The notes under the pieces were generated by a model. That model worked only from the letters and a program-made list of their open reading frames with translations, made no database searches and was not told the origin of the DNA. A stretch of DNA of 58,216 nucleotides. Origin: a virus. The stretch covers positions 1-58,216 of the IMG/VR virus record IMGVR_UViG_3300043411_002890. The stretch is one strand, 5' to 3'. Numbering within the stretch: the stretch's first letter is position 1; each line of letters starts with the position of its first letter. This document shows positions 557 through 45,191 of this stretch, piece by piece. The position numbers and the translations under genes are program-made.

Positions 557-851
557 TGACTATTTCTAGATTTTCCTTTATTATTTGTTTTATAGGCAAC
601 ATTCGTCCGTCTTTTACTCTAAATTTATGATCCATTGAGCATATTACTTCAGTTCCATTATCTAGTAAAAACCTAAAAACAGGTATTTTTCCATGATCAT
701 GAAGTTTTTTTACTTTTACAAAAATAGTTTGTTGTGTTTTTTCATCTCTTGATCTGACAAATTCACCTGGTTGAATATTTTTTATCATTTTAGTTGTTTT
801 ACGTATTCCATTTTTATTATATATTGGAATTTTAGTGTTTGATTTCAAACT
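549..851 (-). other. Split intein N-half (DnaE site 4, FNA/S)
   Basis: This is the last 100 residues of piece 4. It starts with Ser1 (SLKSNTKIPIYN), has a GEFV block A-like turn and a SMDH block B, and then terminates. Its C-half partner must lie left of the window, together with the last part of DnaE. Confidence 0.87.
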
Positions 852-4397: not shown

Positions 4398-4635
4398 CTG
4401 CTCTTAATTCCTTTTTAATACCATCCCGAATAACGATCCATAAATGATTAGGACTACTTTTTAATGTAGTACCATTTTCAAGTTCAAAAACTAAAACTTT
4501 ATTATGATAGGATTCATGTTTGTGAATAACTGGTTTATAACTGTTTGTATGAGTATACACCATATCACCAACATTAATATTTTTTAATTGTTTGATCTCA
4601 TCTTTAGTTTTTATATAGGTATCTGGGTCCAAGCA
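4357..4635 (-). other. Split intein N-half (DnaE site 2)
   Basis: Residues 70-161 of piece 2, from Cys1 (CLDPDTYIKT), with INVGDMVYTH and SPNHLW (block B). It pairs with 3368-3496. Confidence 0.88.
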
Positions 4636-4842
4636 CATCTTCTTTTTACTTAAAAACCGTTCAAATAAAAGCCCATGTTTCACAGGATCTACTTGTGTTA
4701 TACCTGTTGCGTAACACACCAAAGAACCTGCGCCAGAGTTATGAACGGGTATTCCTTCTACGTTGTACGAAGACTTATTTTTGACTGACAAATCATACAC
4801 TTTGCCAGAGTAAGGTACTTCTTTTTTCGATTTTAGTTTCAT
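4357..4842 (-). CDS. dnaE: DnaE piece 2: a 34-residue polymerase exon between two half-inteins
   Basis: Of 161 residues only 36-69 are polymerase: SGAGSLVCYATGITQVDP, then VKHGLLFERFLSKKKM. Residues 1-35 are an intein C-half (KVYDLSVKNKSSYNV, ending VHN) and 70-161 an intein N-half (starts CLDPDTYIKT, block B SPNH). Joining to piece 1 gives LLGAGRG-SGAGSL, the conserved DnaE nucleotide-binding loop (GRGSGAGSLVAYALGITDVDP in bacteria). Joining to piece 3 gives ERFLSKKKM-SLPDID. The protein must be spliced in trans at both ends. An AAGGA Shine-Dalgarno overlaps the stop of the upstream peptidyl-tRNA hydrolase, so translation is probably coupled. Confidence 0.94.
   Translation of the reverse strand: MKLKSKKEVPYSGKVYDLSVKNKSSYNVEGIPVHNSGAGSLVCYATGITQVDPVKHGLLFERFLSKKKMCLDPDTYIKTKDEIKQLKNINVGDMVYTHTNSYKPVIHKHESYHNKVLVFELENGTTLKSSPNHLWIVIRDGIKKELRADEIEITDEFIEML
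4738..4842 (-). other. Split intein C-half (DnaE site 1, GRG/SGAGS)
   Basis: Residues 1-35 of piece 2, with block F GKVYDLSV and block G GIPVHN, then Ser+1. The partner N-half ends piece 1 at 16143-16424, 11.3 kb away. Confidence 0.9.
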
Positions 4843-4849
4843 ATTTTCC

Positions 4850-5218
4850 TTATAGGAGCTTCAGATCTTTTGTTAGCGGGTCTATTTTTTCTGCGGCGTG
4901 CGGACCGACCGAGAGACAAGTTCTTGTAGGAACACCATTAAACTCAGTCAATCCCGAGTCGGTAATAAGATGTGTTGTTAAACCACTTGTTTTTGCCGCA
5001 TCGAACAAAGCAAGAAGTTCTGTTTCGCTCTCAACATAAACACAGATTTTTCTATGCCCAGAATCTAGCCATTCCTGTTCTTCTTGAGATAAAGCAAAAG
5101 AACCTTGTTTGTATTTTTCAATTAACCAAGCAGAACTTGCATGGGCTATTTGTGCAGCCAATTTACCTTTTCTTACATTAAGGTCTTTACGCCATACGAG
5201 TATTTGTTTTATTATCAT
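4850..5218 (-). CDS. Peptidyl-tRNA hydrolase, PTH2 family
   Basis: A 122-residue protein, the usual size of the archaeal/eukaryotic-type PTH2 fold. The N-terminal strand KQILVWRKDLNVRKGKLAAQ followed by IAHASSAW matches the PTH2 K..G..aaQ.aHA signature. The C-terminal TDSGLTEF and GVPTRTCLSVGPH match the family T.DAG.T(Q/E)...g..TvlaiGP. The activity would release tRNA from stalled peptidyl-tRNA. It sits 2 nt after the hypothetical gene upstream, and its stop overlaps the SD of DnaE piece 2. Confidence 0.9.
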   Translation of the reverse strand: MIIKQILVWRKDLNVRKGKLAAQIAHASSAWLIEKYKQGSFALSQEEQEWLDSGHRKICVYVESETELLALFDAAKTSGLTTHLITDSGLTEFNGVPTRTCLSVGPHAAEKIDPLTKDLKLL

Positions 5219-5220
5219 TA

Positions 5221-5622
5221 CTAACTCCTAGTTTTTAGAACTAAATTTTTAGGTTTTTGGTTTGGACCAAAATCAGATACTATTTCAAACGATTCAACGT
5301 CATTGTCGCAAATTTTATGCGAAAGAAATAACCAATCTATTTTTTCTGTGTTAGCACAATACATTAGAACACGATTTCTTGATAAACATTGAATTGTTTT
5401 CGTAATCACACAGACATCATAATTTTGTCTATCAGTTAGAGTTTTAAAATGTATATATTTTAAATGAAAATTTGGATCTGATAAAGGAATCAAATGATCT
5501 GGAATTTTTTCATCTTTATAATTTTTTATAAAACTCTGAAAGACGTTAATTCTACTAGAATCTAGATAATCTATTTCAGATTTAAGTTTATTAATGATAG
5601 ACTGTTCATCTTCTTCTTTCAT
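5221..5622 (-). CDS. Hypothetical protein
   Basis: A 133-residue protein with no recognised domain. It is acidic at the N-terminus and mixed alpha/beta in appearance, with no signal peptide or TM segment. It overlaps the thymidylate synthase stop by 4 bp (ATGA type), so it belongs to the same minus-strand operon. Confidence 0.75.
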   Translation of the reverse strand: MKEEDEQSIINKLKSEIDYLDSSRINVFQSFIKNYKDEKIPDHLIPLSDPNFHLKYIHFKTLTDRQNYDVCVITKTIQCLSRNRVLMYCANTEKIDWLFLSHKICDNDVESFEIVSDFGPNQKPKNLVLKTRS

Positions 5623-6458
5623 ACTGCTATCTCTAGATCTGCTTTTAGTTTTTGGGGAGAGTTAAATCCTTCTATTGTAAAGTCTTCTAGTTTTATTTCA
5701 TAAAAACTTTTTGAATGATTTAGTTCAAGCACTGGGGATTTATCGAGTGGTTCTTTTAAGATTAGTTCGTTTGCCGCGTTTAAATGCCTGTCATAAATGT
5801 GCAAATTATGAACATAATGGCAAAATTTTCCTGGTTTATATCCGAGATCAGAACAAACCATAAGCAATAAAGCATAATACTGAGCTTTATTTATCCAATT
5901 GGCCATAATATAATCTGAACTTCTCTGAATTAACGTTAAGTCTAATATAAATTTCCCATCTAGTTTTCTGACATTCCAAATGGTTTCATAAGCGCAAGGA
6001 TGCAAACCATTTGTTTCCTGAAGATCAGACTCTTGATATAAATTCATTATATGTCTTCTACTAAAGGGATCTTGCTTCAAACTATGTAATAGTTTATTCA
6101 TTAAATCCCATTTTCTGACGGTTGCACCATAACGCTGACCAATTGTGCCGTTTCCAATATCCCATTCGTCCCACCAATTAATCCCAGTTTGCTTCGCCGC
6201 GTCGAGCGAGGCGGTCTGCTGTTGGTATATCCACATTACCTCTTTAATCCCAGTTTTAACTGCCGTTGGTCGCAAGGTTGTGAATGGAAATTCTCCATTT
6301 AATAAGTCATATTCTTCAAATATTTGGTTTATGAATATACTTTTTGCAGGTGTGCCGTCTTTATATTTTGGTCTTGGATTTTCGTCTTTATATCCTTTTG
6401 TTGTTAACTTATATAAGTTTTGTTTGTAGTATTGGTCAGCTTTATTCATTTTTTTCAT
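5619..6458 (-). CDS. thyA: Thymidylate synthase
   Basis: A 279-residue ThyA-fold enzyme converting dUMP to dTMP with methylene-tetrahydrofolate. Landmarks are TTLRPTAVKTGIKE near the N-terminus, the DPFSRRHI arginine pair, catalytic Cys155 in GLHPCAYETI, LIQRSSDYIMANWIN (canonical QRS.D....P.N) and the C-terminal folate/dUMP loop HIYDRHLNAANELI. The residue after Cys-Ala is Tyr, not the usual His of PCH, a divergence seen in some phage enzymes. It is operonic with DHFR upstream, which recycles the dihydrofolate product. Confidence 0.95.
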   Translation of the reverse strand: MKKMNKADQYYKQNLYKLTTKGYKDENPRPKYKDGTPAKSIFINQIFEEYDLLNGEFPFTTLRPTAVKTGIKEVMWIYQQQTASLDAAKQTGINWWDEWDIGNGTIGQRYGATVRKWDLMNKLLHSLKQDPFSRRHIMNLYQESDLQETNGLHPCAYETIWNVRKLDGKFILDLTLIQRSSDYIMANWINKAQYYALLLMVCSDLGYKPGKFCHYVHNLHIYDRHLNAANELILKEPLDKSPVLELNHSKSFYEIKLEDFTIEGFNSPQKLKADLEIAV

Positions 6459-7105
6459 TCTTCCTTTTCTTCAAAATAGAAACCGTAAAGAGAATCACAG
6501 TCTATTTTCTTTGAATTTTTTAATAGTCCGAAACTTAACAATCTATGAGTTCCGTCAATTATTTTCATAGTTCCGTTTTTTGTTTTACAAACTACTATTC
6601 TATTTGTTGCAACCCAAATATTTTTAGAATTCAAAACATTGTGAGAAGACACTTTTGAGAGTTTTGGTAAAACTGTGTCATTTGCCGTAAGCCAAGAATT
6701 TAAGGAATCGACTCTTTTTTCTATATCGTTTATTGCATCAACAGACTTTTCTATATTATCTTTTGATTTTCTTACTATCGTAAAACCTTTTTTCTTTTTA
6801 ACAGACAGTTCGTAGCTATCCAAGAACTGTTCAAAACTTACAGAAGTATAACAAGACTCGTAACTTAATAACTCTTCAAAACTAAAATTGGCAATAACAA
6901 CAGAACTATCTTTAAGATAGTCAGAAATATATTGCCTCTTTGAATTGAAAATAACTTCTCTAAGTTTATTTTCTAAAGAAGAAGAAAAATCTGGTTTTAA
7001 TATTAAATCCTGATTCAATAATCTAATGTTGTTAGCCAATGCATGATCTCCATCAAGCATAGACCATATTAAAAACTCTTTGCTGGTTGCTAGTTTTACT
7101 TTCAT
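6455..7105 (-). CDS. Hypothetical protein with ParB-like DGTHR motif
   Basis: A 216-residue protein. The C-terminal third contains NGTMKIIDGTHRLLSFGLL, which resembles the DG.HR nucleotide-binding box of ParB/sulfiredoxin-fold proteins. The N-terminal half is helical and unassigned. Both ends overlap neighbours by 4 bp (thyA downstream, MORN-like gene upstream), indicating translational coupling. The ParB-like fold is a tentative reading from a single motif. Confidence 0.65.
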   Translation of the reverse strand: MKVKLATSKEFLIWSMLDGDHALANNIRLLNQDLILKPDFSSSLENKLREVIFNSKRQYISDYLKDSSVVIANFSFEELLSYESCYTSVSFEQFLDSYELSVKKKKGFTIVRKSKDNIEKSVDAINDIEKRVDSLNSWLTANDTVLPKLSKVSSHNVLNSKNIWVATNRIVVCKTKNGTMKIIDGTHRLLSFGLLKNSKKIDCDSLYGFYFEEKEE

Positions 7106-7410
7106 TTTATTATTAGTCCTGGGATGTCTGGGTATTCAAATATTTTATTTTTATCAAGAAGTTTGTACCATTTGATATTATACTTTCCCTTATCGTGGTC
7201 AAGAACAACATAGTCTTTTAGGTTTATTTTGGAATAGTAATGGCTTTCAAGATACCAATGTTTGGTTCCACTTGAATATTCACACGCTGGTCCACCTTCT
7301 CTATGATATTTACCATCTTTATACCATTCTTTTGTTCCACTTGAATATTCTGCAATACCAGTATAATTTTTTGGAATATCAAGACAAGATTTTACTTTTA
7401 TGGTTTTCAT
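7102..7410 (-). CDS. MORN-like repeat protein, tandem paralogue 6
   Basis: About 102 residues when started at the ATG at 7410, which forms an ATGA overlap with the upstream paralogue. A longer frame to 7440 exists but would extend further into that gene. It begins MKTIKVKSCLDIPKNYTG, has two short repeats of the type WYKDGKYHREGGPA, and ends with the family tail YPDIPGLIIK. This is the last and shortest member of the array before the ParB-like gene. Function unknown. Confidence 0.8.
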   Translation of the reverse strand: MKTIKVKSCLDIPKNYTGIAEYSSGTKEWYKDGKYHREGGPACEYSSGTKHWYLESHYYSKINLKDYVVLDHDKGKYNIKWYKLLDKNKIFEYPDIPGLIIK

Positions 7411-7784
7411 TTTTCTATTAGTCCTGGAATGTCTGGGCATTCAATTATTTTATCTTTGTTAAGGAGTTTGTACCACATAAGATTACATTTTCCTTCGTAG
7501 TAATCAAGGATAATATAATCATTTAGGTTTATATGGGAATAACATTCACTTTCAAGCCACCATTGTTTATATCCATTTGAAAATTCACATGCTGGGCCTT
7601 CTTCTCGATGCCGTTTTCCTTCTTTATACCATTCTTTTGTTCCACTTGGGTATTCAACCGCTGGTCCATCTTCTCGATGAAGTTTACCTTCTTTATACCA
7701 TTCTTTTGTTTCACTTAAAAAGTGAACAATCCCAGTGAAGTTTTCTGGAATTTCTGAAAGATCTTTTATTTTTATTGTTTTCAT
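7407..7784 (-). CDS. MORN-like repeat protein, tandem paralogue 5
   Basis: A 125-residue paralogue starting MKTIKIKDLSEIPENFTG. It has three repeats built on W(Y)KEGK.HRE(D/E)GPA.E followed by the conserved tail (DYIILDYYEGK, then CPDIPGLIEK). These repeats resemble the MORN-variant/YwqK-type beta-hairpin repeats found in phages and giant viruses. No catalytic residues are apparent. Confidence 0.83.
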   Translation of the reverse strand: MKTIKIKDLSEIPENFTGIVHFLSETKEWYKEGKLHREDGPAVEYPSGTKEWYKEGKRHREEGPACEFSNGYKQWWLESECYSHINLNDYIILDYYEGKCNLMWYKLLNKDKIIECPDIPGLIEK

Positions 7785-7796
7785 TTTACCACGAAT

Positions 7797-8243
7797 TTAC
7801 TTTTCAATCAATCCTGGAATGTCTGGATATTCTACAATTTCATCTTTAGTAAGAATTTTATACCACACGATCTCATCTTCTCCTTTAAAATAGTCGAGAA
7901 TAATATAATCATTTGGGTTTATTTGTTTATAAAAGTTGCCTTCGAGATACCAATCTCTATCTTCATCTGCCCATTCACATGCTGGCCCATCTGCTCTATG
8001 AAGTTTTCCTTCTTTGTACCACTTCTTTTCTCCATCTGCATATTCAACTGCTGGCCCATCTGCTCTATGAAGTTTTCCTTCTTTGTACCATTTCTTTGTT
8101 CCATGTGAATTTTCAACTGCTGGCCCATCTTCTCTGTGAAGATTACCTTCTTTATACCAACGTTTTGCTCCATCTGAATCTTCAACAATGCCTGTGAAGT
8201 TTTTTGGAATTTCTGAAACAGATGTTACTTTTATAGTTTTCAT
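7797..8243 (-). CDS. MORN-like repeat protein, tandem paralogue 4
   Basis: A 148-residue member, the longest of the six, because it holds one additional copy of the repeat (WYKEGKLHRADGPAVEYADG occurs twice almost unchanged). N-terminus MKTIKVTSVSEIPKNFTG and tail YPDIPGLIEK as in its siblings. The 12-nt gap to the next paralogue is the only one in the array without an ATGA overlap. The near-identical internal repeats suggest recent unequal recombination. Confidence 0.83.
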   Translation of the reverse strand: MKTIKVTSVSEIPKNFTGIVEDSDGAKRWYKEGNLHREDGPAVENSHGTKKWYKEGKLHRADGPAVEYADGEKKWYKEGKLHRADGPACEWADEDRDWYLEGNFYKQINPNDYIILDYFKGEDEIVWYKILTKDEIVEYPDIPGLIEK

Positions 8244-8617
8244 TTCTCAATCAGTCCTGGTATATCTGGGTATTCAAATATTTTATCTTCGCCAAGAAGT
8301 TTATACCACATAATCCCATATTTTCCCTCATATTCATCAAGAATAATTTGGTCTTTAAGAACTATTTGAGAATATCGTTCATTTTCAAGGTACCATCTTT
8401 TTGTTCCATCTGGCAATTCTTTTGCTGGACCATCTTCTCGATGCCACCACCCATTTTTATACCAAACCTTTGTTCCATCTGTATATTCAATTGCTGGTCC
8501 GTTTTCTCGATGACGTCTTCCGTCTTTATACCAAAATTTATCCCCATCGGGATATTCAACAATTCCAGTGAAATTTTCTGGTATCTCTTTCCATCTTTTT
8601 ACTTTTATAGTTTTCAT
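8240..8617 (-). CDS. MORN-like repeat protein, tandem paralogue 3
   Basis: A 125-residue member starting MKTIKVKRWKEIPENFTG with three HRE(N/D)GPA repeats and the tail FEYPDIPGLIEK. The first 15 residues are identical to paralogue 2, indicating a recent duplication or gene conversion of the 5' end. ATGA overlaps at both ends. Confidence 0.83.
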   Translation of the reverse strand: MKTIKVKRWKEIPENFTGIVEYPDGDKFWYKDGRRHRENGPAIEYTDGTKVWYKNGWWHREDGPAKELPDGTKRWYLENERYSQIVLKDQIILDEYEGKYGIMWYKLLGEDKIFEYPDIPGLIEK

Positions 8618-8922
8618 TTAGTTATAAGTCCTGGTATATCTGGATATTCAAATATTTTATCTTCGCCAAGAATTCTGTGCCAAATGAGGTTATATTCCCC
8701 TTGATAGGAATCAAGAATAACGTTATCTCCTAGAAATATTTGTTTATAACAAACATTGTTTAGATACCATTCTTTATACCCATCTGCATATTCACACGCT
8801 GGGCCATCTTCCCGATGTTGATCGCCATTTTTAAGCCAAAATTTATTTCCACTTGGATATTCCACGAGCCCAGTATAGTTTTCTGGTATCTCTTTCCATC
8901 TTTTTACTTTTATAGTTTTCAT
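8614..8922 (-). CDS. MORN-like repeat protein, tandem paralogue 2
   Basis: A 102-residue member starting MKTIKVKRWKEIPENYTG with only two repeats (NKFWLKNGDQHREDGPACEY and a degenerate one) and the tail FEYPDIPGLITK. It appears to have lost one repeat relative to its neighbour. Coupled by 4-bp overlaps on both sides. Confidence 0.83.
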   Translation of the reverse strand: MKTIKVKRWKEIPENYTGLVEYPSGNKFWLKNGDQHREDGPACEYADGYKEWYLNNVCYKQIFLGDNVILDSYQGEYNLIWHRILGEDKIFEYPDIPGLITK

Positions 8923-9260
8923 TTCTCAATCAGTCCTGGGATATCTGGGCATTCAAATATTTTATTCTTTCCAAGAATCCTATACCATATTAACCCATAC
9001 TTTCCCTCGTATTCATCAAGAATAATTTGATCTTTAAGAACTATTTGAAAATAAGAATCTCCTTCAAGATACCAATATTTTGTTCCATCTGGATATTCAA
9101 CGGCTGGTCCGTCTTCTCGATGACGTTTTCCTTCTTTATACCAATATTTTGTTCCATCTGCATATTCAATTGCTGGTCCATCTTCTCTATGAAGATTGTT
9201 GTTCTTATACCAGTGTCTTTCTTTGTTAGAAGAATGCCCAGAATAATCGTCTTTTTTCAT
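8919..9260 (-). CDS. MORN-like repeat protein, tandem paralogue 1 (atypical N-terminus)
   Basis: A 113-residue member with three HREDGPA repeats and the tail ECPDIPGLIEK. It lacks the shared MKTIKVK N-terminus and instead begins MKKDDYSGHSSNKERHWYKN. It lies directly downstream of DHFR (6 nt). As the first gene of the array, its 5' end may have been replaced or truncated. Confidence 0.82.
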   Translation of the reverse strand: MKKDDYSGHSSNKERHWYKNNNLHREDGPAIEYADGTKYWYKEGKRHREDGPAVEYPDGTKYWYLEGDSYFQIVLKDQIILDEYEGKYGLIWYRILGKNKIFECPDIPGLIEK

Positions 9261-9266
9261 TTAGCT

Positions 9267-9806
9267 TTATCTTTTCAAGTGGTGAAATGTATAACTTATA
9301 GGTTCTTTTTTAAGATCTTCTTTAAAGAAGGATTTTTCATCGTAAACTTTATACGAAAGAAATTCTTGCCAACCCTCTTTTATTAAAAGATCTGAATTAA
9401 AACTAATTTTTGTGTCAAACTTCAAATTTAAAGTTGTTTGTCGTTTTGATTTGGTAATTTCCGAAAGAAATATTTCATTAGCAAGTGGTAAGAAGAAATC
9501 AAAAATACTTGTCCCACCTAAGATAAAAACCTTTTCCTCTAAAGATTTATGTTTCTCAACCCATTCTTCTGGTGATTTAAAGATCTCGATTCCCTCTTTT
9601 TGATCTAAAGTTGTTGATATAACAACATTTTTTCTATTTGGCAGAGGTTTTCCGATTGAATCAAAAGTCTTTCGTCCCATTAAAACTTGATGACCAGTTG
9701 TTATCATCTTAAACCTCTTTAGATCAGAAGGAAGAAACCAAGAAAGGGTATTATCGTTTCCGATATACCCTTCTTTCGTTGAAGCTACAATCAAAGCTAT
9801 ATTCAT
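9267..9806 (-). CDS. folA: Dihydrofolate reductase
   Basis: A 179-residue enzyme of typical length. It begins MNIALIVASTKEGYIGNDNT (NADPH/substrate strand A), then LSWFLPSDLKRFKMIT with the L.W..P.D...F motif, VLMGRKTFDSIGKPLPNRKN (GRKT..S.G.PLP.R.N), and VFILGGTSIFDFFL (GG..iy). It reduces the dihydrofolate made by the phage ThyA in the same operon. It starts 9 nt after the subtilase stop, so it may be read from the promoter at 11598-11625. Confidence 0.95.
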   Translation of the reverse strand: MNIALIVASTKEGYIGNDNTLSWFLPSDLKRFKMITTGHQVLMGRKTFDSIGKPLPNRKNVVISTTLDQKEGIEIFKSPEEWVEKHKSLEEKVFILGGTSIFDFFLPLANEIFLSEITKSKRQTTLNLKFDTKISFNSDLLIKEGWQEFLSYKVYDEKSFFKEDLKKEPISYTFHHLKR

Positions 9807-9815
9807 AGCCTCATG

Positions 9816-11537
9816 TTACTTCTGGTTTTTTGTCGAGTCAAGTGTCAATCGTGCAATCACACTCATAACCATTACATTTCCTAGTGTCCACATTGCTGAA
9901 GATAGCCACCCAAGAGGAAATGCGTGCATTCCGCTTAGAAATGTACCCAACAAGAACGCTGCTGTTCCTATTGTAAATCCACCAATAGGTGCTCTAAGTT
10001 TTTTAGATGAATAGAATGTGGCTATTAGCACAAGAGGTAGAAAAGCACTTCCAAGAGGTAAGAATTGGTGAATAAAACTATTTGTATAGAGTGTTAGTTC
10101 ACCTGGGGGCACTGTTAGAAACTTGGGCAGCGTAAACGGAAGCCACATTGTAAGCAATGATAGGCCGAAAGCCGCATACATTGCAGGCAATACCCATTTT
10201 TTATGATCTTCGATCTTACCACCTTTTTTGGTTATTGCTCCCAAAACAGAGGCAAGAATAAGAATCAATGATAAACCACGCCAAAGTGTTTTCTTTGTTT
10301 CAATGCTGGAAACTGCATGTTTTGCGGACAAAACACCAGAGCCATAAAGTTCTGGGTTTCTATCTCCATGTTCAGGTCTTTGTGCTGAAGACCTTAGAAT
10401 TGACTCTACTGAATCAGGATTTGTTACGCCCATTGAAACAATCAAACCTGCAACTCCTGCAACATGCGGAGCTGCCATTGAAGTTCCCGACCATGCAACA
10501 AATTGCTCGCAGCCGTTTCGACCATTATCACAAATAGTTTGTTGTGGAATGTTAACTCCAGGAGCAGCAATCGCAATCTCTTGCCCACGAGAAGAAAAGT
10601 CTGCGATTGTATCGCCTGGGCCAATTGCACTAACTGCAAAAGCTCCTGGTTCATTTGCTGGGGATTCCACTCTATGTCCGTTGTTTCCTGCGGCACAGAT
10701 AACAACAGCTCCCTTATTTCTTGCATAAGCGACCGCTTCCGCCATAACACGGTTTCTTGGGCCGCCACCAAGAGAAAGATTGATAACATTTGCACCTTGA
10801 TCTGCCGCGAATCTGATTCCTTCCGCAACGTCTGCCAAAGTGCCAGAGCCACGAGCATCAAGAACTTTGACGGGAATGATTGTGGCGCAGTGAGCAATAC
10901 CAGCAAACCCGACTCCGTTATCTGTTGCCTGCGCAATTGTTCCAGCAACATGCGAACCGTGACCTTGGTCATCATTTGCATGATTGTTGTTTGAAACAAA
11001 GTTCCACCCTTCCACACAGTTTGTGGTATTCAAATCAGAAAGTCTCTGAAACCTTCCGTGAGTTTCACAGGCAACACCTGTATCAACAACCGCGATTCTA
11101 ACGCCTCTCCCGCATGTTTGATTCCATGCAGATTCAACTCCAATTCTTCTCAATCCCCATTGTTCAGAAAATCTTGGATCGTTTGGTGTACGAAACATTC
11201 GCATTTGATGGTTAGGCTCAGCACCTTGAACATTCGATTCATTTCTTAATGAAGAAATGATCTGTTCGCCGCGTGAATGTTCAGCTCTGAAAGTATAAAT
11301 TCTATCCTCACCAACCATTTGTGGAGTATTTGCCGTCAACGCAATCCCATATCTTCGAGATGTTTCTTGCACTGTTGATTCCGAAACAGAATCGGAAAAA
11401 TCAACAACGAATTCTTCTTGACCAGTATTTGTTTGCGATTCGTCATTGAATGTTGCATGCTGTGCTCTTGCGTTTGTTGACGCAAGAATAACAGATAGCA
11501 TCACCGATGTTGTTAGATAGGATCTTACGTTTCTCAT
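9816..11537 (-). CDS. Secreted/membrane S8 (subtilisin-like) serine protease
   Basis: A 573-residue protein. It has a signal peptide (residues about 1-25, hydrophobic core, ARA cleavage-like site), an inhibitor I9-like propeptide (about 40-115) and a peptidase S8 domain with Asp152 (IAVVDTGV), His193 (QGHGSHVAGT), Asn285 (AAGNN) and Ser353 (GTSMAAPHVAG). The C-terminal 150 residues hold about four TM helices, so the mature enzyme may be membrane-anchored. Codon use is visibly richer in G+C than the neighbours, which fits acquisition from a bacterial host. The SD is clear: GGAAACAAAGGAAAAAA precedes the ATG. A role in lysis, entry or predation of host envelope proteins is guesswork. Confidence 0.93.
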   Translation of the reverse strand: MRNVRSYLTTSVMLSVILASTNARAQHATFNDESQTNTGQEEFVVDFSDSVSESTVQETSRRYGIALTANTPQMVGEDRIYTFRAEHSRGEQIISSLRNESNVQGAEPNHQMRMFRTPNDPRFSEQWGLRRIGVESAWNQTCGRGVRIAVVDTGVACETHGRFQRLSDLNTTNCVEGWNFVSNNNHANDDQGHGSHVAGTIAQATDNGVGFAGIAHCATIIPVKVLDARGSGTLADVAEGIRFAADQGANVINLSLGGGPRNRVMAEAVAYARNKGAVVICAAGNNGHRVESPANEPGAFAVSAIGPGDTIADFSSRGQEIAIAAPGVNIPQQTICDNGRNGCEQFVAWSGTSMAAPHVAGVAGLIVSMGVTNPDSVESILRSSAQRPEHGDRNPELYGSGVLSAKHAVSSIETKKTLWRGLSLILILASVLGAITKKGGKIEDHKKWVLPAMYAAFGLSLLTMWLPFTLPKFLTVPPGELTLYTNSFIHQFLPLGSAFLPLVLIATFYSSKKLRAPIGGFTIGTAAFLLGTFLSGMHAFPLGWLSSAMWTLGNVMVMSVIARLTLDSTKNQK

Positions 11538-11597
11538 TTTTTTCCTTTGTTTCCTTTGTTTCCTGTTCTGGTTTCGTCTCTCGTGCCTTGGACTGAC

Positions 11598-11625
11598 ACT
11601 ATATGCACGCGCAGGCGGCTGTCAA
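11598..11625 (-). promoter_or_regulatory. Sigma70-type promoter upstream of the subtilase
   Basis: On the minus strand TTGACA (11620-11625), a 16-bp GC-rich spacer, and TATAGT (11598-11603). It lies about 60 bp upstream of the protease ATG with a purine-rich SD between them. Near-consensus in an AT-rich genome. Confidence 0.75.
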
Positions 11626-11632
11626 CGGCCGT

Positions 11633-12028
11633 CTATGGCATGTTTACGATTATACAAGGCGGCTCTAAAACTTTAAGGGATGTATATTTTTTGAATGCTG
11701 AAAACTGACTTTTTGTCATTAAAATAAACTCATAAACATATGCTACGTTATGCAAACGATCTGCATATTGAAAATAAAAAACATATAAAGATCTCTTTGA
11801 GATTACACTAAACTTAGTTCTAAGTTTTCTTGGAGACAAGAAACCCATGAGATTGATTACAATGCTGGTATCATTTTTTGTAATCAAGAAAAAATCTTCA
11901 ACAAGAGTTTTTTCGATTTTATCTAAAACAACTAAATTTAAACCAATTCGTTTTTTATTAATATTTCCCAGTTCGAAAGATGAAGAATCTATTAATTTAT
12001 CTATGATAAGTTTATTCTTCTTTTTCAT
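11633..12028 (-). CDS. Hypothetical protein, SPRKL family
   Basis: A 131-residue protein of unknown function, one of a local paralogous set. Shared features are an SIVI strand followed by FLSPRKL and a basic segment, then an aromatic strand (SLYVFYF), and a C-terminal strand LKVLEPPCIIVNM. No enzyme motif or TM segment. It starts within the end of the next paralogue (17-bp overlap). The set may be immunity/anti-defence proteins or structural decorations; nothing in the sequence decides this. Confidence 0.75.
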   Translation of the reverse strand: MKKKNKLIIDKLIDSSSFELGNINKKRIGLNLVVLDKIEKTLVEDFFLITKNDTSIVINLMGFLSPRKLRTKFSVISKRSLYVFYFQYADRLHNVAYVYEFILMTKSQFSAFKKYTSLKVLEPPCIIVNMP

Positions 12029-12479
12029 GACTCTCCATATTCAAAATTATTTTTGGTGGCTCTAAAACCTCAAGTCCACAAATTTTATGAAACTGGTTAA
12101 AATCTTTTTCAGATATAAAAAAATAATCAAAATCATTATGAATTTCAAATTCACGATTAGCCTTTAGACAAGAACCAATAAACTTTGACATAAATTGAAA
12201 TACTATAAGAGGTTTTCTTGATCGTATGCCAAAACATGTTTGAAGTTTTCGTGGAGAAAAAAATCCAACAGTATCTATGATTAAAGATGAATCAGTGACA
12301 ATTGATCCAAAGATAAGGTTGTAATTCTGTGCTTTATTTGTGTAAAACATTCCGACTGAAAAACGATTAGGTTGCAGAGGATAAGGATCAATATTAAAAC
12401 TAATATTATGTTTCTTAATAAGAAGATCAATATCTTGTTCGTGGCTTAATATATAAGCATTATTCTTTTTTGATTTCAT
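12012..12479 (-). CDS. Hypothetical protein, SPRKL family
   Basis: A 155-residue paralogue of the neighbour. It shares SSLIIDTVGFFSPRKLQTCF, the strand PLIVFQFM, and the C-terminal LEVLEPPKIILNM. The N-terminal third is variable. It overlaps the next gene upstream by 4 bp, so the paralogues are co-translated. Confidence 0.76.
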   Translation of the reverse strand: MKSKKNNAYILSHEQDIDLLIKKHNISFNIDPYPLQPNRFSVGMFYTNKAQNYNLIFGSIVTDSSLIIDTVGFFSPRKLQTCFGIRSRKPLIVFQFMSKFIGSCLKANREFEIHNDFDYFFISEKDFNQFHKICGLEVLEPPKIILNMESHEKEE

Positions 12480-12883
12480 TTTAAATGAACTATTACATGA
12501 GGTATATCAATAATATACTTGAAATATGATTTTTGCCTATTAAACTGTTCGATTGTCATTAAACAATGACATTGACTTTTATCTTCTCTAATTAATAAAC
12601 AACTAACAAGAGGAGCAAAATTTCTTATTTTATAAGAATATCGATTTATTCTAATTCTTTTTCTTCTTCTTGAAATCTTCTTTGAAGATTTCTTCTTTCT
12701 AAAATATGAAGAAGATATATGAAGTTTAAGATATTTTTCCGATCTTATGAGGAAGATGACTTGTAATCCATAATTTAATATATCTGAAAATAGAAATTGT
12801 TCTTTTTCTTCTAACAAAGAAATCTGTTTTTCTTCATCAAGAACTTCAATATATGTATTCTGAATACATTTTTCACTTTTCAT
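12476..12883 (-). CDS. Hypothetical protein, probable diverged SPRKL-family member
   Basis: A 135-residue protein rich in Lys/Arg in the middle (KKSSKKISRRRKRIRINR). Its C-terminal IIDIPHVIVHLK occupies the place of the LEPPKIILNM strand of the neighbours, but SPRKL itself is not preserved. Assignment to the family rests on position, size and that tail only. Confidence 0.68.
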   Translation of the reverse strand: MKSEKCIQNTYIEVLDEEKQISLLEEKEQFLFSDILNYGLQVIFLIRSEKYLKLHISSSYFRKKKSSKKISRRRKRIRINRYSYKIRNFAPLVSCLLIREDKSQCHCLMTIEQFNRQKSYFKYIIDIPHVIVHLK

Positions 12884-12885
12884 TT

Positions 12886-13122
12886 TTAGAGATTTTTTTC
12901 AAACTTATACATATTTTTTATATACGCATGAAAAAATTTGCCTTTTGATTCTGAAGATTTAAACTGTTCCCATGTATCTTCGGTAACACCCTTATATTCA
13001 TAAATTTTACCATTTGTTTTAAACGTTAATTTAAGTCTATGGTAAAGAGAATTGTATTCTGCATGGGTTATTAACTTACTTGATTCTGTATCTATTTGGT
13101 CTGTTGTTATTGAATCTATCAT
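12886..13122 (-). CDS. KTSC-domain protein
   Basis: A 78-residue protein matching the KTSC domain: ITHAEYNSLYHRLKLTF, then NGKIYEYKGVTEDTWEQF, then SSESKGKFFHAYIKN. The family pattern is v.Yd...L.v.F.nG..Y.Y..V....y..l..A.S.G.yfn..Ik. KTSC domains are small and sometimes fused to nucleic-acid enzymes; their role is not established. A second KTSC protein is encoded at 13627-14040. Confidence 0.8.
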   Translation of the reverse strand: MIDSITTDQIDTESSKLITHAEYNSLYHRLKLTFKTNGKIYEYKGVTEDTWEQFKSSESKGKFFHAYIKNMYKFEKNL

Positions 13123-13131
13123 TTTTTATCC

Positions 13132-13359
13132 TTAGTTTGTATTAACTATTACTTTTGGGAACTCTAGGAGTTTAATATTGAACTCTCTAAAATACGGAAT
13201 TAAATTTTGTAAATATGATTTCGTTATATACAATGGAGAGTTTATTTGATCATCAAAAGATATTAAATATTGTGTGTTTGGATCTATCTTATATAGTGAA
13301 AATTCACTAATAATTTGATATTTTGACCATAATCTTCTTGGCGAGATCTTTTCAATCAC
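13132..13359 (-). pseudogene. Truncated SPRKL-family paralogue
   Basis: The frame from a GTG at 13359 gives IEKISPRRLWSKYQIIS and a C-terminal FNIKLLEFPKVIVN strand, both matching the paralogues at 11633 and 12012. The same frame continues upstream without a start codon as ...DCNQSIV until a TGA near 13478, and that upstream part also aligns (NQSIVI versus DTSIVI). The gene therefore looks like a paralogue whose 5' end has decayed, although GTG initiation of a short product cannot be excluded. Confidence 0.6.
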
Positions 13360-13626
13360 AATAGATTGATTACAATCAAGGCGAATTAATTGTGAAGATA
13401 CTACTTGCTTCCTTGTCTCAATGAATTCACTTGTTAATTTTGATTGTTTATAAACAGTCTTTTTTCTAAAATTTCAAAAAATAAAGCATTTTTTTGTTTA
13501 AATATTCTATTTTTTTCTCAAACTCTCGAATAGTTTGGTCTATGTAAATTAATATTTAAATCCTTTCAAATAGGAAAGCCCTTGAAGGGTTTAATCTTCA
13601 AGGGCTTTATTTGGTTTAGATTCGAT
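13360..13626. other. Intergenic AT-rich segment with decayed 5' end and hairpin
   Basis: This 267-bp gap holds the residual upstream frame of the decayed SPRKL gene, a run of A/T-rich sequence, and the hairpin at 13575-13608. No other ORF or RNA gene was recognised. Confidence 0.6.
13575..13608. terminator. Strong hairpin, probable bidirectional terminator
   Basis: A perfect 13-bp stem (AAAGCCCTTGAAG / CTTCAAGGGCTTT) with an 8-nt loop, 19 bp downstream of the KTSC/basic-tail gene stop on the minus strand. The stem ends in AAA/TTT on each side, but only short U runs follow. Confidence 0.65.
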
Positions 13627-14040
13627 TCAAACCCGTTTTGAGGCCATTGTCTTCACATATGAATGGAAGAATGTACCAGCGGATTTACGTCTACGCCACG
13701 ACATTGCCATCTCTTTTGAGAAACTCTCATAAAGATACCGATTTCCGTCTTTGAAAAAGACGGTCATGTTACCAGTTTGATGATTGGCTTTGTCATTGGC
13801 TACCCAACGAAAGCTCTTGATGAAAGATGAATCTTCAAATTTATGCTCAATCATAAATTGAGTATTTGAAGGTGTACGTTTTGTAACAGGTGTTGACTTA
13901 ACCTTTGTAGGTTTAGTTGTTACCCTTGTTGAATTTTTCTTTGTTGATTTTTTAGGAGCTGATGTTTTTGTCATTTTTCTTGTTGATTTTCCTGTCGAGT
14001 TACTCTTAGATGATCGTTTCGCGGTTTTTGTCTTTGTCAT
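13627..14040 (-). CDS. Histone H1-like basic tail fused to a KTSC domain
   Basis: About 137 residues from the ATG at 14040. Residues 1-60 are almost only Lys, Arg, Ser and Thr (MTKTKTAKRSSKSNSTGKST, then TSAPKKSTKKNSTR), like histone H1 or bacterial Hc1-type tails. The C-terminal 75 residues are a KTSC domain (FIKSFRWVAND, then MTVFFKDGNRYLYES, then KSAGTFFHSYVK). The frame is open to 14142, but that would cross the promoter, and only 7 nt separate the -10 box from the 14040 ATG. DNA binding by the tail is inferred. Confidence 0.8.
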   Translation of the reverse strand: MTKTKTAKRSSKSNSTGKSTRKMTKTSAPKKSTKKNSTRVTTKPTKVKSTPVTKRTPSNTQFMIEHKFEDSSFIKSFRWVANDKANHQTGNMTVFFKDGNRYLYESFSKEMAMSWRRRKSAGTFFHSYVKTMASKRV

Positions 14041-14047
14041 GCACCGT

Positions 14048-14075
14048 AGTATAAGAGCGCTGCGGGCACCGTCAA
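14048..14075 (-). promoter_or_regulatory. Promoter giving a probable leaderless mRNA
   Basis: Minus strand TTGACG (14070-14075), 16-bp GC-rich spacer, TATACT (14048-14053). The downstream ATG at 14040 is 7 nt after the -10 box, so transcription would start at or next to the initiation codon. Confidence 0.7.
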
Positions 14076-14092
14076 GGGGCGGCGTGTCGTTT

Positions 14093-14326
14093 TCAGTCCT
14101 CGTTGTGCTTGAGTTTGTATTGAGCAAATAATTGCTGAACAATTCTTAACTCATCAAAAGTCAAACCAATACTATCTTGAGTGCCCATGATGTTAGCAAA
14201 ATAAACTTCAGAATACCTTTGTCTATCATATCCAAAATCATCGAACAAAACTACGGTTCTTGCTCTGATAACAAGACCATTTTTTTCTACCAAAGTTTCT
14301 TCACGAATTAGTTTTTGTTTCAACAT
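14093..14326 (-). CDS. Hypothetical protein
   Basis: A 77-residue protein, mixed beta then helical (LTFDELRIVQQLFAQYKLKH), without a recognisable domain. It overlaps the next gene upstream by 26 bp and ends just before the promoter at 14048-14075. Confidence 0.68.
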   Translation of the reverse strand: MLKQKLIREETLVEKNGLVIRARTVVLFDDFGYDRQRYSEVYFANIMGTQDSIGLTFDELRIVQQLFAQYKLKHNED

Positions 14327-14654
14327 TTTCTATACTTTCACCCTTTTCAAGAATCATTTTGTTTTTTTCATCTAAAATTTGTTTAATACCTAAAAAAGAA
14401 TATCCATTTACATCAAGATAAGCATCTAATCTGCCTTCTTCTGGAGGAAGTAGGCTGCTATTTGCTATTCGACTTAGCTTATCAATTACTCTTATGATGA
14501 ACATTACGTCAGAATATTGTTCTTCGACAATTCCATCTGGGAAGAGGAGTTTTAGGTGCTCCGTTGTCTTATTAAAACTTCCGCCATAAGCGCGATTCTT
14601 TTTCTCCAAGAGTTCGGCTTGGGCGACTGCAATTTCATGAAATGTTTTCTTCAT
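14301..14654 (-). CDS. DUF1599-like small phage protein
   Basis: A 117-residue protein. The N-terminal VAQAELLEKKNRAYGGSFNK and the following helices (YSDVMFIIRVIDKLSRIANS) resemble the LL..KN..YG.S motif of DUF1599, sometimes called nucleotide-modification-associated domain 1. Function in phages is not established, and I assign the family only from this motif pattern. Confidence 0.68.
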   Translation of the reverse strand: MKKTFHEIAVAQAELLEKKNRAYGGSFNKTTEHLKLLFPDGIVEEQYSDVMFIIRVIDKLSRIANSSLLPPEEGRLDAYLDVNGYSFLGIKQILDEKNKMILEKGESIENVETKTNS

Positions 14655-14698
14655 GGAGAAGAGTTATAACATCTCAATTTTAAGAAGGCAATAGTCTT

Positions 14699-14965
14699 TT
14701 ATTTTTCAGTGGGAAGATTGATATACACAACAACTATAGTATATTTGCCGCGCATGGACTGCGAAGACTCAAGATAAGAAACAATAGCAATCTCAGCCTC
14801 TTCCCAAGATTCATACAATGGATCAGTTTTCCCAGATATTGTAACAGACTCGAAGTATTCGTTGACAATCCTAAACATCTTATGAGGCTTAAGTTTGAAA
14901 TCATGAGAGCTAATTCTTCTTGGAGATAAATCATTTCCAAGAAGAATATCTTTTTCGTTACTCAT
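14699..14965 (-). CDS. Hypothetical protein, SPRKL-like family
   Basis: An 88-residue protein with NDLSPRRISSHDFKLKP near the N-terminus, like the SPRKL motif of the genes at 11.6-13.4 kb, and a C-terminal strand YTIVVVYINLP comparable to the IIVN tail. It overlaps the next upstream gene by 8 bp. The family link is suggestive, not certain. Confidence 0.7.
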   Translation of the reverse strand: MSNEKDILLGNDLSPRRISSHDFKLKPHKMFRIVNEYFESVTISGKTDPLYESWEEAEIAIVSYLESSQSMRGKYTIVVVYINLPTEK

Positions 14966-15365
14966 TAAATTTCTTAAAATTAATTTTTATAGAAGGCATT
15001 CCCTTAATTAATTTTTTATTTTCCAAGAAATTTTGACAAGATGAGAAAACATAAAAATATTGTTTTGTATATTTGTTTTGATACATGATTGTTGGAAAAT
15101 AAAAATTGATTATATCTTTTTCATTCTTATATTTTCCCATATCATTTATTTTGTATTGTGTCTTAAAGAACAACCTTACCGCCCTTTTAGAAATGACTCT
15201 AATAGGTTCAAGTTCTTTTATTTCATCTTCTGTGAGAGATACAGCATTAAAATAACACTCTTCATCATATTCATCTTGAATGATCTCAAAAAACATGAAA
15301 TATGTTGTTATTTTGCCCACTGTTGTTATACAATTTTTTATTAGTTGTCTAGTGAGCATTACCAC
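14958..15365 (-). CDS. Hypothetical protein
   Basis: A 135-residue protein. The segment EIKELEPIRVISKRAVRLFF resembles the SPRKL-plus-strand region of its neighbours, and the end (MPSIKINF) occupies the position of their C-terminal strand. No known domain or TM helix. It sits in the same minus-strand series of small co-oriented genes. Confidence 0.7.
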   Translation of the reverse strand: MVMLTRQLIKNCITTVGKITTYFMFFEIIQDEYDEECYFNAVSLTEDEIKELEPIRVISKRAVRLFFKTQYKINDMGKYKNEKDIINFYFPTIMYQNKYTKQYFYVFSSCQNFLENKKLIKGMPSIKINFKKFNE

Positions 15366-15392
15366 CTCACTATTAACTACGATACAAATATT

Positions 15393-15707
15393 TTAGTCTT
15401 TTGGATTTGATCTCATTATCGATATTATGTGTCTAACAAGTTTTTCTGGCTCTTGAATTAGCCTTGGGTTTTCTTTTAAATTATGAGCTATTATTTGTAC
15501 TAACGAATCAACTTCAAAATATATATCAAGAGAAATTAAAGGAACCATAATTGTTACAAAAATATTTAAAAGTGTTTCCTGAGCTTCTGAATTGGAAGCT
15601 AAAACAAGATTGTTTAACTCATCAATTTTAGCGTTAAAAATTTCTGTATGATAATCAGTTAGATCATCATATAAACCTTCATTCTCTAAAGCTTTTTTAT
15701 CTATCAT
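15393..15707 (-). CDS. Hypothetical protein with insertion-extended frame
   Basis: A 104-residue protein from ATG 15707 (MIDKKALENEGLYDDL). It appears largely helical. The frame is open to 15767, but the additional N-terminal residues (QDESVSFLLTRNK) are encoded by a mobile-element remnant at 15725-15767, so the original start is most likely 15707. No domain recognised. Confidence 0.7.
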   Translation of the reverse strand: MIDKKALENEGLYDDLTDYHTEIFNAKIDELNNLVLASNSEAQETLLNIFVTIMVPLISLDIYFEVDSLVQIIAHNLKENPRLIQEPEKLVRHIISIMRSNPKD

Positions 15708-15724
15708 TGTTTTTGACTTATTTC

Positions 15725-15767
15725 TTGTGAGCAGAAAACTCACAGACTCGTCCTGTGAGTAGTTCAC
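15725..15767. mobile_element. 43-bp TnpB-element remnant (LE hairpin joined to RE end)
   Basis: It holds TTGTGAGCAGAAAA, then a hairpin CTCACAG...CTGTGAG (15739-15759), then TAGTTCAC. The left part matches the left end of the IS at 57261 and the right part matches the right end of the 196-bp element at 49732-49927. Removing exactly this segment restores a normal stop (VIPMK, TAA) to the upstream gene. It is probably a deletion between the CTGTGAG arms of the two end hairpins. Confidence 0.82.
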
Positions 15768-16099
15768 ATTGGTATAACGTTATCTTTTACTAAGATGATT
15801 ATCTCTTTTAACAATTCAGCATCAGTAAATTTTTTACCAGATAAAGAATCTACAAGTTTTAGTATTTCTGTTATCTCAGGAATATTACCAATGATTTTTA
15901 TGGTTGCAATAATTACATCTTTTGGCGTTTGAAAATCTATCTTTCTTTTCGTAACCCATGCTGAATATTTGAAATTATGAATTTTAAGACAGTTTTTACT
16001 GCAACAAGTTATCGTTGCAGACCTATCGAGAAAACGCTGTTCTTCAGATGGTATAAATAAAAAACCACAGTTAGCACAGAAAATTTGATAAAAAACCAT
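15764..16099 (-). CDS. Zinc-ribbon-like hypothetical protein
   Basis: A 111-residue protein with an N-terminal Cys cluster (FCANCGFLF, later TCCSKNCLKIHNF) likely to bind Zn. The C-terminal part is helical (VIIATIKIIGNIPEITEILK). The last codon and stop come from the inserted element: the TGA is formed by the element's GTGAAC end, while excision would give Met-Lys-stop. The protein is therefore barely altered. It may bind nucleic acid. Confidence 0.72.
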   Translation of the reverse strand: MVFYQIFCANCGFLFIPSEEQRFLDRSATITCCSKNCLKIHNFKYSAWVTKRKIDFQTPKDVIIATIKIIGNIPEITEILKLVDSLSGKKFTDAELLKEIIILVKDNVIPM

Positions 16100-16142
16100 G
16101 GTTTAATTCCCAATAATAACTACTCAAAAAATATTACTAAAA

Positions 16143-16424
16143 CTAAAATGCTACTTTTTCTAACTCATCATTTTCAATAAGTTCTTCAGCAGTAACCCAA
16201 CCTCGATTTTTTGTTAAAATCTTGTGGTCTTTAGTACATGACACAATGGTACCATCATCAAATTCAAGTTCCAAAATGTTTTCATCAATATCAAATTCCC
16301 ACAACTTCAAGACCTCTTGAACACTTCCATCGTGCGTATAGACCCAATCTCCCTCTTTAATATCTTTGATCATTTTTTTAGATTTGTGAAGCGGCATACA
16401 AACATTAGTGTTGGGAACAAAACA
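16143..16424 (-). other. Split intein N-half (DnaE site 1, GRG/SGAGS)
   Basis: Residues 512-604 of piece 1, Cys1, with the block A-like EGDWVYTHDG and block B TKDHKIL. It pairs with the C-half at 4738-4842. Confidence 0.9.
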
Positions 16425-17957
16425 GCCTCTACCAGCACCCAGCAGCATTTTCTTTCCTATTAAAGCAAGACTTTGTGAGCATGTCAAGAAGTACCTTGGA
16501 AGGTTTAAGTGTCGTATTACGTCTAATTCTTCCATTGCTCGATCTATATATTTTTGGTCATTGAGTTTATTTTTTGCTTCAAGTCCTGCAATAGTAAGAT
16601 CAACAAGTTCATTAAAACTTATTTCATCTTCTGTTAACCCAGTTGCTTTAAGAGTATCGAGTTTTGATTGATCAATAAGTTTATTGAGACTTGGAAGTTT
16701 TGGGCTTTTATCAAAAGTTATTTTTTTATCAATTGCATCATGTGCGATATCATGCGTTCGCTCAATAGCATCACAAATTAATTCACTATACTCTTCTGGG
16801 TAAAATGACGGGAATTCAGAAACACAATATTTTTGATACGCTCCCCACATCTGATCCGCATTTTTTGGATACAGTTCATAATCTAATTCTTCAATCTGTT
16901 GCGGGATAATTGACGGGTCAATTTCTTTTAATTTCTCCGTTGTCATTTTAGACATTGTTTTGTAAATTATACGTTCTTTCCAATGATCAGGATTAGGGTA
17001 ATGACAATCCGCTGTTGCGACTAACTTGACTCCCATTTGTTTCGATAGTTCAATTAAATGATAGTTCAATATCTGTTGATATGGAAGCCTATTGAATTGA
17101 AGTTCTAAAAAGAAATTATCTTTTCCATGAAAAGAATCAACAAATCTCTCGGTTAACTCCTTAAGCTCTTTCTGAATTAGATCAAATTTATAATTTTTAA
17201 GTTTATCTATTGAATTTACATATTGATCTGAGTTTAAGTTTAGATCAATATAATGCTTTATCAGCACCTTATTATGCAAGTTTCCAAGACAAGCGCTTGT
17301 TCCGATAATGTTTCCATTAGTATTTGCTTTCAACATTTCAAAATCAATTCTTGGAAAGAAATAAAAACCATCCCGATATGAAAGAGAAGTCAGTTTAAAC
17401 AAACTGTTTAATCCAGTAGTGTTTTTTGCTAGTAATACCAAATGACTTCTGGTTCTTAACGGATTTGCTGATTTATATGACTTTGTTTCTTCTTCATTCT
17501 CAACAACGGTTGTTTCTTCATTGCCCTCTTTAGATTCTAAAATAACAACATTTTCAGTATGTTCATTCAACTCTTCAATCCGTTTTTCTTCTATTGGATC
17601 TGAAACAATAATAAGATTTTCATCTTTAGAAGATTTTTTAGTTGCCTTTTTTTGTTTTTTCAGCTCTTCTTTTTCATTTCCTATTTGTTTTCGCAGCTCT
17701 TCCCACTCTTTTATACTAGGAATGAAATATGCTTCGATTCCGTGGATTACTTTGAACGGTGAGCCACTTTTTTCGAGCCCCTCATAATATTTATATGAAT
17801 GTGAAAATGCATTCATGTTACCGTGATCGGTTATCGCGTGTGCGGTCAATCCGTTTTGTTCGGCAAACTTAAAATGATCTGGAGGTAATCCAATTGCATC
17901 ACCTATACTTCCGTTCGAGTGCGCGTGGAGATTTACATATTTTGTTGGTTTTTTCAT
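16143..17957 (-). CDS. dnaE: DnaE piece 1: PHP domain and palm start, ending in a split intein N-half
   Basis: A 604-residue protein. Residues 1-511 are the N-terminal part of the PolIII alpha subunit: PHP domain with NLHAHSNGSIGD, ITDHGNMNA and VIHGIEAY, a charged linker insertion around 90-160, KLVATADCHYPNPDHW, and the start of the polymerase core ending RYFLTCSQSLALIGKKML followed by LGAGRG. Residues 512-604 are an intein N-half (CFVPNTNVCMPL, EGDWVYTHDG, block B TKDH). The ORF then stops, with no polymerase active site. The rest of the enzyme lies 11.3 kb downstream and beyond. It is directly downstream of the NrdA/NrdB region. Confidence 0.95.
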   Translation of the reverse strand: MKKPTKYVNLHAHSNGSIGDAIGLPPDHFKFAEQNGLTAHAITDHGNMNAFSHSYKYYEGLEKSGSPFKVIHGIEAYFIPSIKEWEELRKQIGNEKEELKKQKKATKKSSKDENLIIVSDPIEEKRIEELNEHTENVVILESKEGNEETTVVENEEETKSYKSANPLRTRSHLVLLAKNTTGLNSLFKLTSLSYRDGFYFFPRIDFEMLKANTNGNIIGTSACLGNLHNKVLIKHYIDLNLNSDQYVNSIDKLKNYKFDLIQKELKELTERFVDSFHGKDNFFLELQFNRLPYQQILNYHLIELSKQMGVKLVATADCHYPNPDHWKERIIYKTMSKMTTEKLKEIDPSIIPQQIEELDYELYPKNADQMWGAYQKYCVSEFPSFYPEEYSELICDAIERTHDIAHDAIDKKITFDKSPKLPSLNKLIDQSKLDTLKATGLTEDEISFNELVDLTIAGLEAKNKLNDQKYIDRAMEELDVIRHLNLPRYFLTCSQSLALIGKKMLLGAGRGCFVPNTNVCMPLHKSKKMIKDIKEGDWVYTHDGSVQEVLKLWEFDIDENILELEFDDGTIVSCTKDHKILTKNRGWVTAEELIENDELEKVAF

Positions 17958-17962
17958 GATTT

Positions 17963-18232
17963 TTATGCCAGGATAAGCTGATCTGGGGAACTTACGCCGA
18001 TTTCTACGGTGTTCGTGTTTTTATTAAAAACAACATTGATATTGATATACCAATGTTGATTCAAAGGCTCTCTAGAACGATGAAAAAGCATTATATTAAT
18101 TAATTCTATCTGAATAAGATCTAACGTTTCGGTGGTTATTGGATAACCCGCGAATTTCGCATATATCTCTTTAGAATAATAACCTAGCAATTGCTCTAAA
18201 AATATCTTTGATATTATTATCTTATTTTCCAC
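17963..18232 (-). CDS. Hypothetical protein
   Basis: An 89-residue protein located 5 nt upstream of DnaE piece 1 in the same operon. Helical N-terminus, then beta strands (WYININVVF, TVEIGVSS). No motif recognised. It overlaps the preceding gene by 11 bp. Confidence 0.72.
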   Translation of the reverse strand: MENKIIISKIFLEQLLGYYSKEIYAKFAGYPITTETLDLIQIELINIMLFHRSREPLNQHWYININVVFNKNTNTVEIGVSSPDQLILA

Positions 18233-21571: not shown

Positions 21572-21583
21572 TTTTATTTTACC

Positions 21584-45148: not shown

Positions 45149-45191
45149 TTTTATTCCTTTTGTTATATCTTGAAATGAAACTTGAACAACT

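Follow-up and report, generated by a model that had tools for sequence, protein, structure and literature searches.

The cyanobacterial split dnaE genes (Ssp and Npu DnaE) have their intein inserted in the fingers at Y^CFNKSH and, as is usual where the halves of an essential gene lie far apart, they are visible only as an end state. Here we consider a phage DnaE gene that is divided into several pieces in a 58,216-nucleotide stretch of viral DNA (IMG/VR record IMGVR_UViG_3300043411_002890, positions 1 to 58,216; hereafter the window), and in particular the 24-gene gap between its first two pieces, D1 and D2. From the cyanobacterial genes it differs in its insertion site (GRG^SGAGS), in having both halves on one strand and in a phage, and in that intermediates persist in relatives. 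Fractured genes that combine split inteins with free-standing endonucleases have been described (Dassa et al. 2009, as cited in passages of PMC7090010 and PMC6892783). As these passages present them, they share with the window an essential replication gene broken inside an intein and PD-(D/E)xK genes at related breaks (D2/D3 in the window; D1/D2 in the relative L042 and others), whereas the D1/D2 break of the window has no recognised endonuclease and holds 24 genes with promoters of their own. Pseudomonas phage MIJ3 also has a replicative polymerase with a split intein, but the enzyme is PolB and one HNH endonuclease gene fills the gap (PMC6892783).

Distant polymerase parts are known too. The minimal PolIII alpha of jumbo phages resembles the window in its distant genes, but these encode separate proteins that are predicted to reconstitute the enzyme, and the passage of PMC7824862 describing them does not mention an intein. 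Bacillus phage G (L195/L197, 239245-250008) encodes a DnaE-like protein that is divided into three or more parts (gp329, gp331 and gp339), with several genes between the last two (gp332-gp338, ~5 kb) and a contiguous intein in gp329 at the same GRG^S site; it differs in that no intein was seen at the gp329/gp331 and gp331/gp339 breaks, where no Rfam intron was found either. By analogy, the arrangement in the window would work like phage fractured genes and the cyanobacterial split dnaE, and because large gaps have precedents of other kinds (PMC7765530, PMC7824862 and Bacillus phage G), we regard it as a variant and not a new category. Among the related phages DnaE is found unbroken, with a contiguous intein, split with or without an endonuclease, and separated by 24 genes, which makes the route readable and testable.

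DnaE pieces and their intein junctions

The window is a linear 58-kb record in which the four DnaE pieces, D1 to D4, all lie on the minus strand, as follows:

16143-17957, minus strand: D1, with the PHP domain and N-terminal polymerase part (residues 1-511, ending LGAGRG) and an N-intein
16146-16424, minus strand: N-intein of D1, at LGAGRG^C, 93 amino acids (aa), Cys1 and block B TKDH intact
4357-4842, minus strand: D2, a 35-aa C-intein, a 34-aa extein (SGAGS...SKKKM) and the 92-aa N-intein of the next junction
4738-4842, minus strand: C-intein of D2, with VHN^S at its end, pairing with the N-intein of D1, aligned with L014, L042 and L048
3462-4397, minus strand: free-standing PD-(D/E)xK/treble-clef endonuclease between D2 and D3, with a 53% homologue at the same junction in L046 and none in the related phage G001
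2306-3496, minus strand: D3, a C-intein, SLPDID, a contiguous mini-intein, SDCADRE...KS and an N-intein
549-1811, minus strand: D4, a C-intein, the fingers region (Pfam DNA_pol3_finger, 1.8e-29) and an N-intein at FNx^

The earlier note had placed 11.3 kb between the first two pieces, and the distance is exactly 11,300 bp (4843-16142), from the end of the D1 stop codon at 16143 to the D2 ATG at 4842. This gap holds 24 open reading frames (ORFs), 24/24 sharing the minus strand with D1 and D2, at a coding density of 95%, with just two spacers of more than 50 bp (13360-13626, 267 bp; 11538-11632, 95 bp).

Across the joined pieces the features of the DnaE class are present (PHP, DNA_pol3_alpha and DNA_pol3_finger in Pfam). 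D1 matches PHP (1.9e-25), an intein splicing domain (4e-5) and, in PHROG, phage DNA polymerase (4e-71), and D2, whose polymerase content is only 34 residues flanked by two intein halves, matches DNA_pol3_alpha (3e-13). The catalytic Asp motifs, read off the sequence, are PDID^SD in D3 and KFDFL in D4; the PDIDxD motif is not in D1. The C-terminal piece, D5, is beyond the window and is present in G001. No single piece holds the full active site. The mini-intein of D3 is an additional contiguous one within the catalytic PDID^SD; G001 lacks it, and in L009 and L048 this position is also occupied by an intein.

Read together, D1 and D2 give GRG^SGAGS, at a place where the one-piece DnaE of related phages is uninterrupted (GRGS..GS). 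The N- and C-splicing domains are encoded by two different ORFs and sit at corresponding points of a single host protein, and the best PDB match of the two when joined is the NrdJ-1 intein (9e-9). The splicing residues are present in the window (C512, block B TKDH of the TxxH form, and the terminal HN with +1 Ser of VHN^S), those of D1 being conserved in G001 and G002 and those of D2 in G001. By these tested sequence features D1/D2 is a natural split intein, and trans-splicing is predicted. As in fractured genes, a conserved replication gene is interrupted inside its intein; no free-standing endonuclease was recognised at D1/D2, one is present at D2/D3 (3462-4397), and a second endonuclease ORF follows D4. 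The L042 endonuclease had no match in the window, the gap gave no remnant of this type, and no integrase, transposase or endonuclease was recognised in those gap genes that were scanned. The halves would meet as proteins and trans-splice at GRG^SGAGS (predicted junction peptide GAGRGSGAGSLVCY), and splicing of the remaining junctions in the same way would yield the full-length polymerase. Such a protein would depend on several natural split inteins, with one extein of 34 residues needing splicing at both ends.

Gap genes and the history of the break

The recognised genes in and beside the gap are these:

17963-18232, minus strand: h17963, a small gene directly upstream of D1, whose homologue in L047 and L044 lies shortly before an unbroken dnaE
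14093-14654, minus strand: gene pair h14301-h14093, the same adjacent pair being found upstream of unbroken dnaE in the outgroup L047
13627-14040, minus strand: KTSC-domain gene (KTSC2) with a Lys/Thr/Ser-rich tail, its KTSC match slightly below the Pfam cutoff
9816-11537, minus strand: subtilase S8 (Pfam 3e-50), 59-65% conserved in sister phages
9267-9806, minus strand: dihydrofolate reductase, DHFR (Pfam 3e-40)
7102-9260, minus strand: six tandem HREDGPA-repeat ORFs, their copy number differing among sister phages
5619-6458, minus strand: thymidylate synthase, ThyA (Pfam 2.6e-61), 64-73% identical in three sister phages
4850-5218, minus strand: peptidyl-tRNA hydrolase 2, PTH2 (Pfam 5e-30), 7 bp before D2

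The thyA, DHFR and protease genes that the earlier note had read in the gap are borne out by Pfam (thymidylate synthase, DHFR, S8 subtilase). Its name "MORN array" is not borne out: the HREDGPA-repeat ORFs tested gave sub-threshold DUF6745 matches only.

The long gap is shared by the window and three relatives with D1 identity of 60-68%, of which L014 (phage G001, 172 kb) and L015 (G002) came from a search with ThyA and L122 (G003) from a search with S8. The gap is ~15.6 kb in G001, and is >10.4 kb in G002 and >9.2 kb in G003, both contigs ending before D2. In all three, D1 is followed, in an unchanged order, by the same block as in the window: h15393, h14958, h14301, h14093, KTSC2, KTSC1, S8, DHFR, ThyA. 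G001 continues with PTH2, then D2 and D3 in one ORF, D4 and the terminal D5; its D2/D3 intein is contiguous and that of the window is split, so the D2/D3 split varies within a group that shares the D1/D2 split. The pieces of G001 cover residues 2-1222 of a one-piece homologue, and no second intact DnaE was found in its 172 kb beside this fragmented set.

A tree of the D1 extein unites the four long-gap phages in a single clade (100/100), and on this sequence evidence the long gap is of single origin. The clade is nested in a larger one (99/98) whose remaining members have an unbroken DnaE except L042, with a short split at the D1/D2 site, and L046, which is broken at D2/D3; both of these breaks were read by hand, automatic chaining having overlooked them. 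Within L047 the gene order is DnaB, Nrd, DHFR, h14301, h14093, ..., KTSC1, h17963, unbroken DnaE and a superoxide-dismutase-like gene. L044 agrees with it for KTSC1, an h17963-like ORF and DnaE, and the homologies are backed by profile comparisons (for h17963, hhalign 97.5%, E 5.5e-12). Phages of the window clade still have h17963 before D1, with h14301-h14093-KTSC1 now between D1 and D2; downstream of D5, G001 has kept the dismutase-like gene. Since the best outgroup has the gap genes ahead of an intact dnaE, the pieces were once adjacent, and a segment swap probably separated them. In several relatives the gene downstream of DnaE (L014:17858-18769, L047:14689-15555) has a match to Fe/Mn superoxide dismutase (for L047, Pfam 8.5e-16).

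Outside this clade the separation is exceptional. Among ~90 related loci scanned, most have a one-piece DnaE (~75 contigs), and all breaks found span at most ~2.7 kb. A search with the D2 C-intein and extein brought up ~30 loci whose GRG^S site carries an intein. The site is split in 16 distinct loci with gaps of -8 to 2,300 bp that often contain a single endonuclease gene. This agrees with the earlier statement that one such gene usually parts the halves of fractured genes, and such halves normally lie close together. Several of the short gaps consist of one ORF of ~290-340 aa with a PD-(D/E)xK signature, overlapping the start of the second half, and others hold a 68-aa remnant or nothing; the endonuclease in the L042 gap matches phage endonuclease families. 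The states at the D1/D2 site are:

No intein: L043, L045, L047, L172 and many others
Contiguous intein (LG.GRG^S): L048, L150, L160
Split intein with endonuclease: L042, L137, L155, L158
Split intein without endonuclease: L142, L143, L154, L159

The split in L042, set against its close relative L045 without an intein, indicates that the element moves. In two further loci DnaE is in five (L013, 9941-16723) and four (L126, 5010-11896) closely spaced pieces, apparently parted at intein sites.

We think it probable, on sequence comparison, that a single dnaE gene was dismantled by inteins and that D1 was afterwards moved off from D2. An unbroken ancestral dnaE would have acquired a contiguous intein, which became a split intein with an endonuclease gene in the break, the endonuclease later surviving as a remnant or being lost; the D1/D2 break plausibly descends from such an endonuclease-in-gap state. 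Once trans-splicing worked, adjacency would have become dispensable and a segment swap could be tolerated. A swap of neighbouring segments after trans-splicing arose, for example by tandem duplication and complementary loss, would be the simplest account.

Transcription across the gap and competing explanations

Three candidate control elements lie in the gap:

14048-14075, minus strand: sigma-70-like promoter TTGACG-16-TATACT before KTSC2, position conserved in 4/4 phages
13575-13608, minus strand: hairpin, likely a terminator, directly after KTSC2 (-23.1 kcal/mol, z = -6.1)
11598-11625, minus strand: sigma-70-like promoter TTGACA-16-TATAGT before S8, position conserved in 4/4 phages

The earlier note had named all three. 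The promoter boxes are real and recur in place, but promoter-like sites are not more numerous than chance allows (62 against 58.1 expected; 4 against 4.2 for TTGAC-N17-TANNNT), so that the two promoters stand out because the same two positions are conserved in four phages and not by count. The window's two top matches to a -35/-10 model are at 14077 and 11627; as the model was built from the four phages and includes these two sites, the independent argument is that TTGAC-N17-TANNNT precedes KTSC2 and S8 in all four long-gap phages. As for the hairpin, its fold is strong and its position is kept in 4/4 phages with differing sequences (z -4.7 to -6.1), a clear U-run following it in L014 and L122, but in the window the minus-strand U-run is poor.

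Given the conserved positions of the promoters and the hairpin, D1 and D2 are likely on separate transcripts, as had been proposed; a terminator probably follows D1, and a promoter probably precedes D2. D1 would come from an upstream transcript with nrdA and nrdB that ends at the hairpin after KTSC2, and D2 and the later pieces from a unit starting at the promoter before S8. D2 starts 7 bp past PTH2, and the stretch from S8 to D2 yielded no good terminator on the minus strand. T4-like late promoters (TATAAATA) gave six scattered matches without pattern. A third promoter-like site is found just past the conserved hairpin in L014 (634-661) and L122 (8818-8845), where it precedes a gene that is absent there in the window.

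It is doubtful that the separation is put to use, with D1 and D2-D5 under different promoters and full-length polymerase made only when both transcription programmes run. If so, the arrangement would be an AND-gate for replication built on protein splicing. The suggestion that the pieces could be dosed independently goes too far, since read-through may join the units. With the active site incomplete in every piece, 1:1 trans-splicing limits what unequal dosing could gain.

Several observations count against the proposed history and the separate transcripts. DHFR has a different place in the block in L047 and in the window, and the rearrangement may have been more than one event; the outgroup order is based mainly on one contig (L047) and partly on L044. 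The 3' tail of the window hairpin on the minus strand (CCTATTTG) is a poor U-run, a consensus terminator scan flagged this hairpin for the plus strand only, and read-through could join the D1 and D2 transcription units. These last points also favour an alternative that keeps the same origin and gives the gap no effect on expression, with equal levels of the pieces coming from read-through along one long transcript or from a different type of phage promoter. The co-direction of 24/24 genes, mostly with tiny spacers, and the chance-level number of promoter-like sites would fit it as well. Set against this is the positional conservation of the hairpin in all four phages, two of which have a U-run after it, and of both promoters, and we consider equal expression rather unlikely.

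The pieces might also be separate subunits that assemble without splicing, such a split enzyme being described by Iyer et al. for the jumbo-phage minimal PolIII alpha (in the passage cited above, PMC7824862). All breaks in the window, however, lie inside inteins with intact splicing residues, the same sites in relatives hold contiguous inteins or none, and the 34-aa extein of D2 is probably too small for a subunit, which leaves this explanation very unlikely. There is a similarly slim chance that the 24 genes entered the break together as a mobile element or moron cluster, possibly by way of the endonuclease site. The block's own promoters, its terminator-like hairpin and the higher G+C content (GC) of S8 (0.435) would suit an insertion, but the third-position GC (GC3) of S8 (0.29) resembles that of its neighbours, h14301, h14093 and KTSC1 are long resident upstream of dnaE in L047/L044, and the scanned gap genes include no recognised mobility gene. 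That S8 or the block arrived recently was rejected on the same grounds, GC3 being neighbour-like and the block genes old residents in outgroups. Phage introns with open reading frames exist, but a giant RNA intron or an assembly chimera is vanishingly improbable here, with no Rfam family match in the region at E up to 0.5 and with four contigs from different metagenomes agreeing on D1 and the block, two of them also on D2 after PTH2.

Neighbouring genes and other inteins

The KTSC-domain unit (13627-14075), with its own conserved promoter and terminator-like hairpin, is moron-like. The HREDGPA-repeat ORFs form a fast-changing array, with six in the window, two found in G001 and none found in the G002 and G003 stretches. 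No tRNA was found.

Elsewhere in the window, a 343-aa protein (29878-30909) weakly matches family-A DNA polymerases (Pfam 2.4e-6, below the cutoff); it is kept in G001 and G002, and its motif C is HDA, not HDE. An ORF cut by the record end (57355-58215) looks, by eye, like a TnpB-type transposon protein.

NrdA, NrdB, RecA and PhoH in the window (19367-23521, 27091-28758, 42785-45247) are also intein-bearing, giving ~9 intein sites in 58 kb. In the RecA of G001 (L039, G001:C1, ~162073-164737, minus strand) the intein is broken after ~17 residues, and the second ORF is a PD-(D/E)xK-like endonuclease fused to the remainder of the intein and the RecA C-terminus. The same intein is contiguous in the window and apparently missing from G002, and the G001 gene seems to capture an intein on its way to an atypical split.

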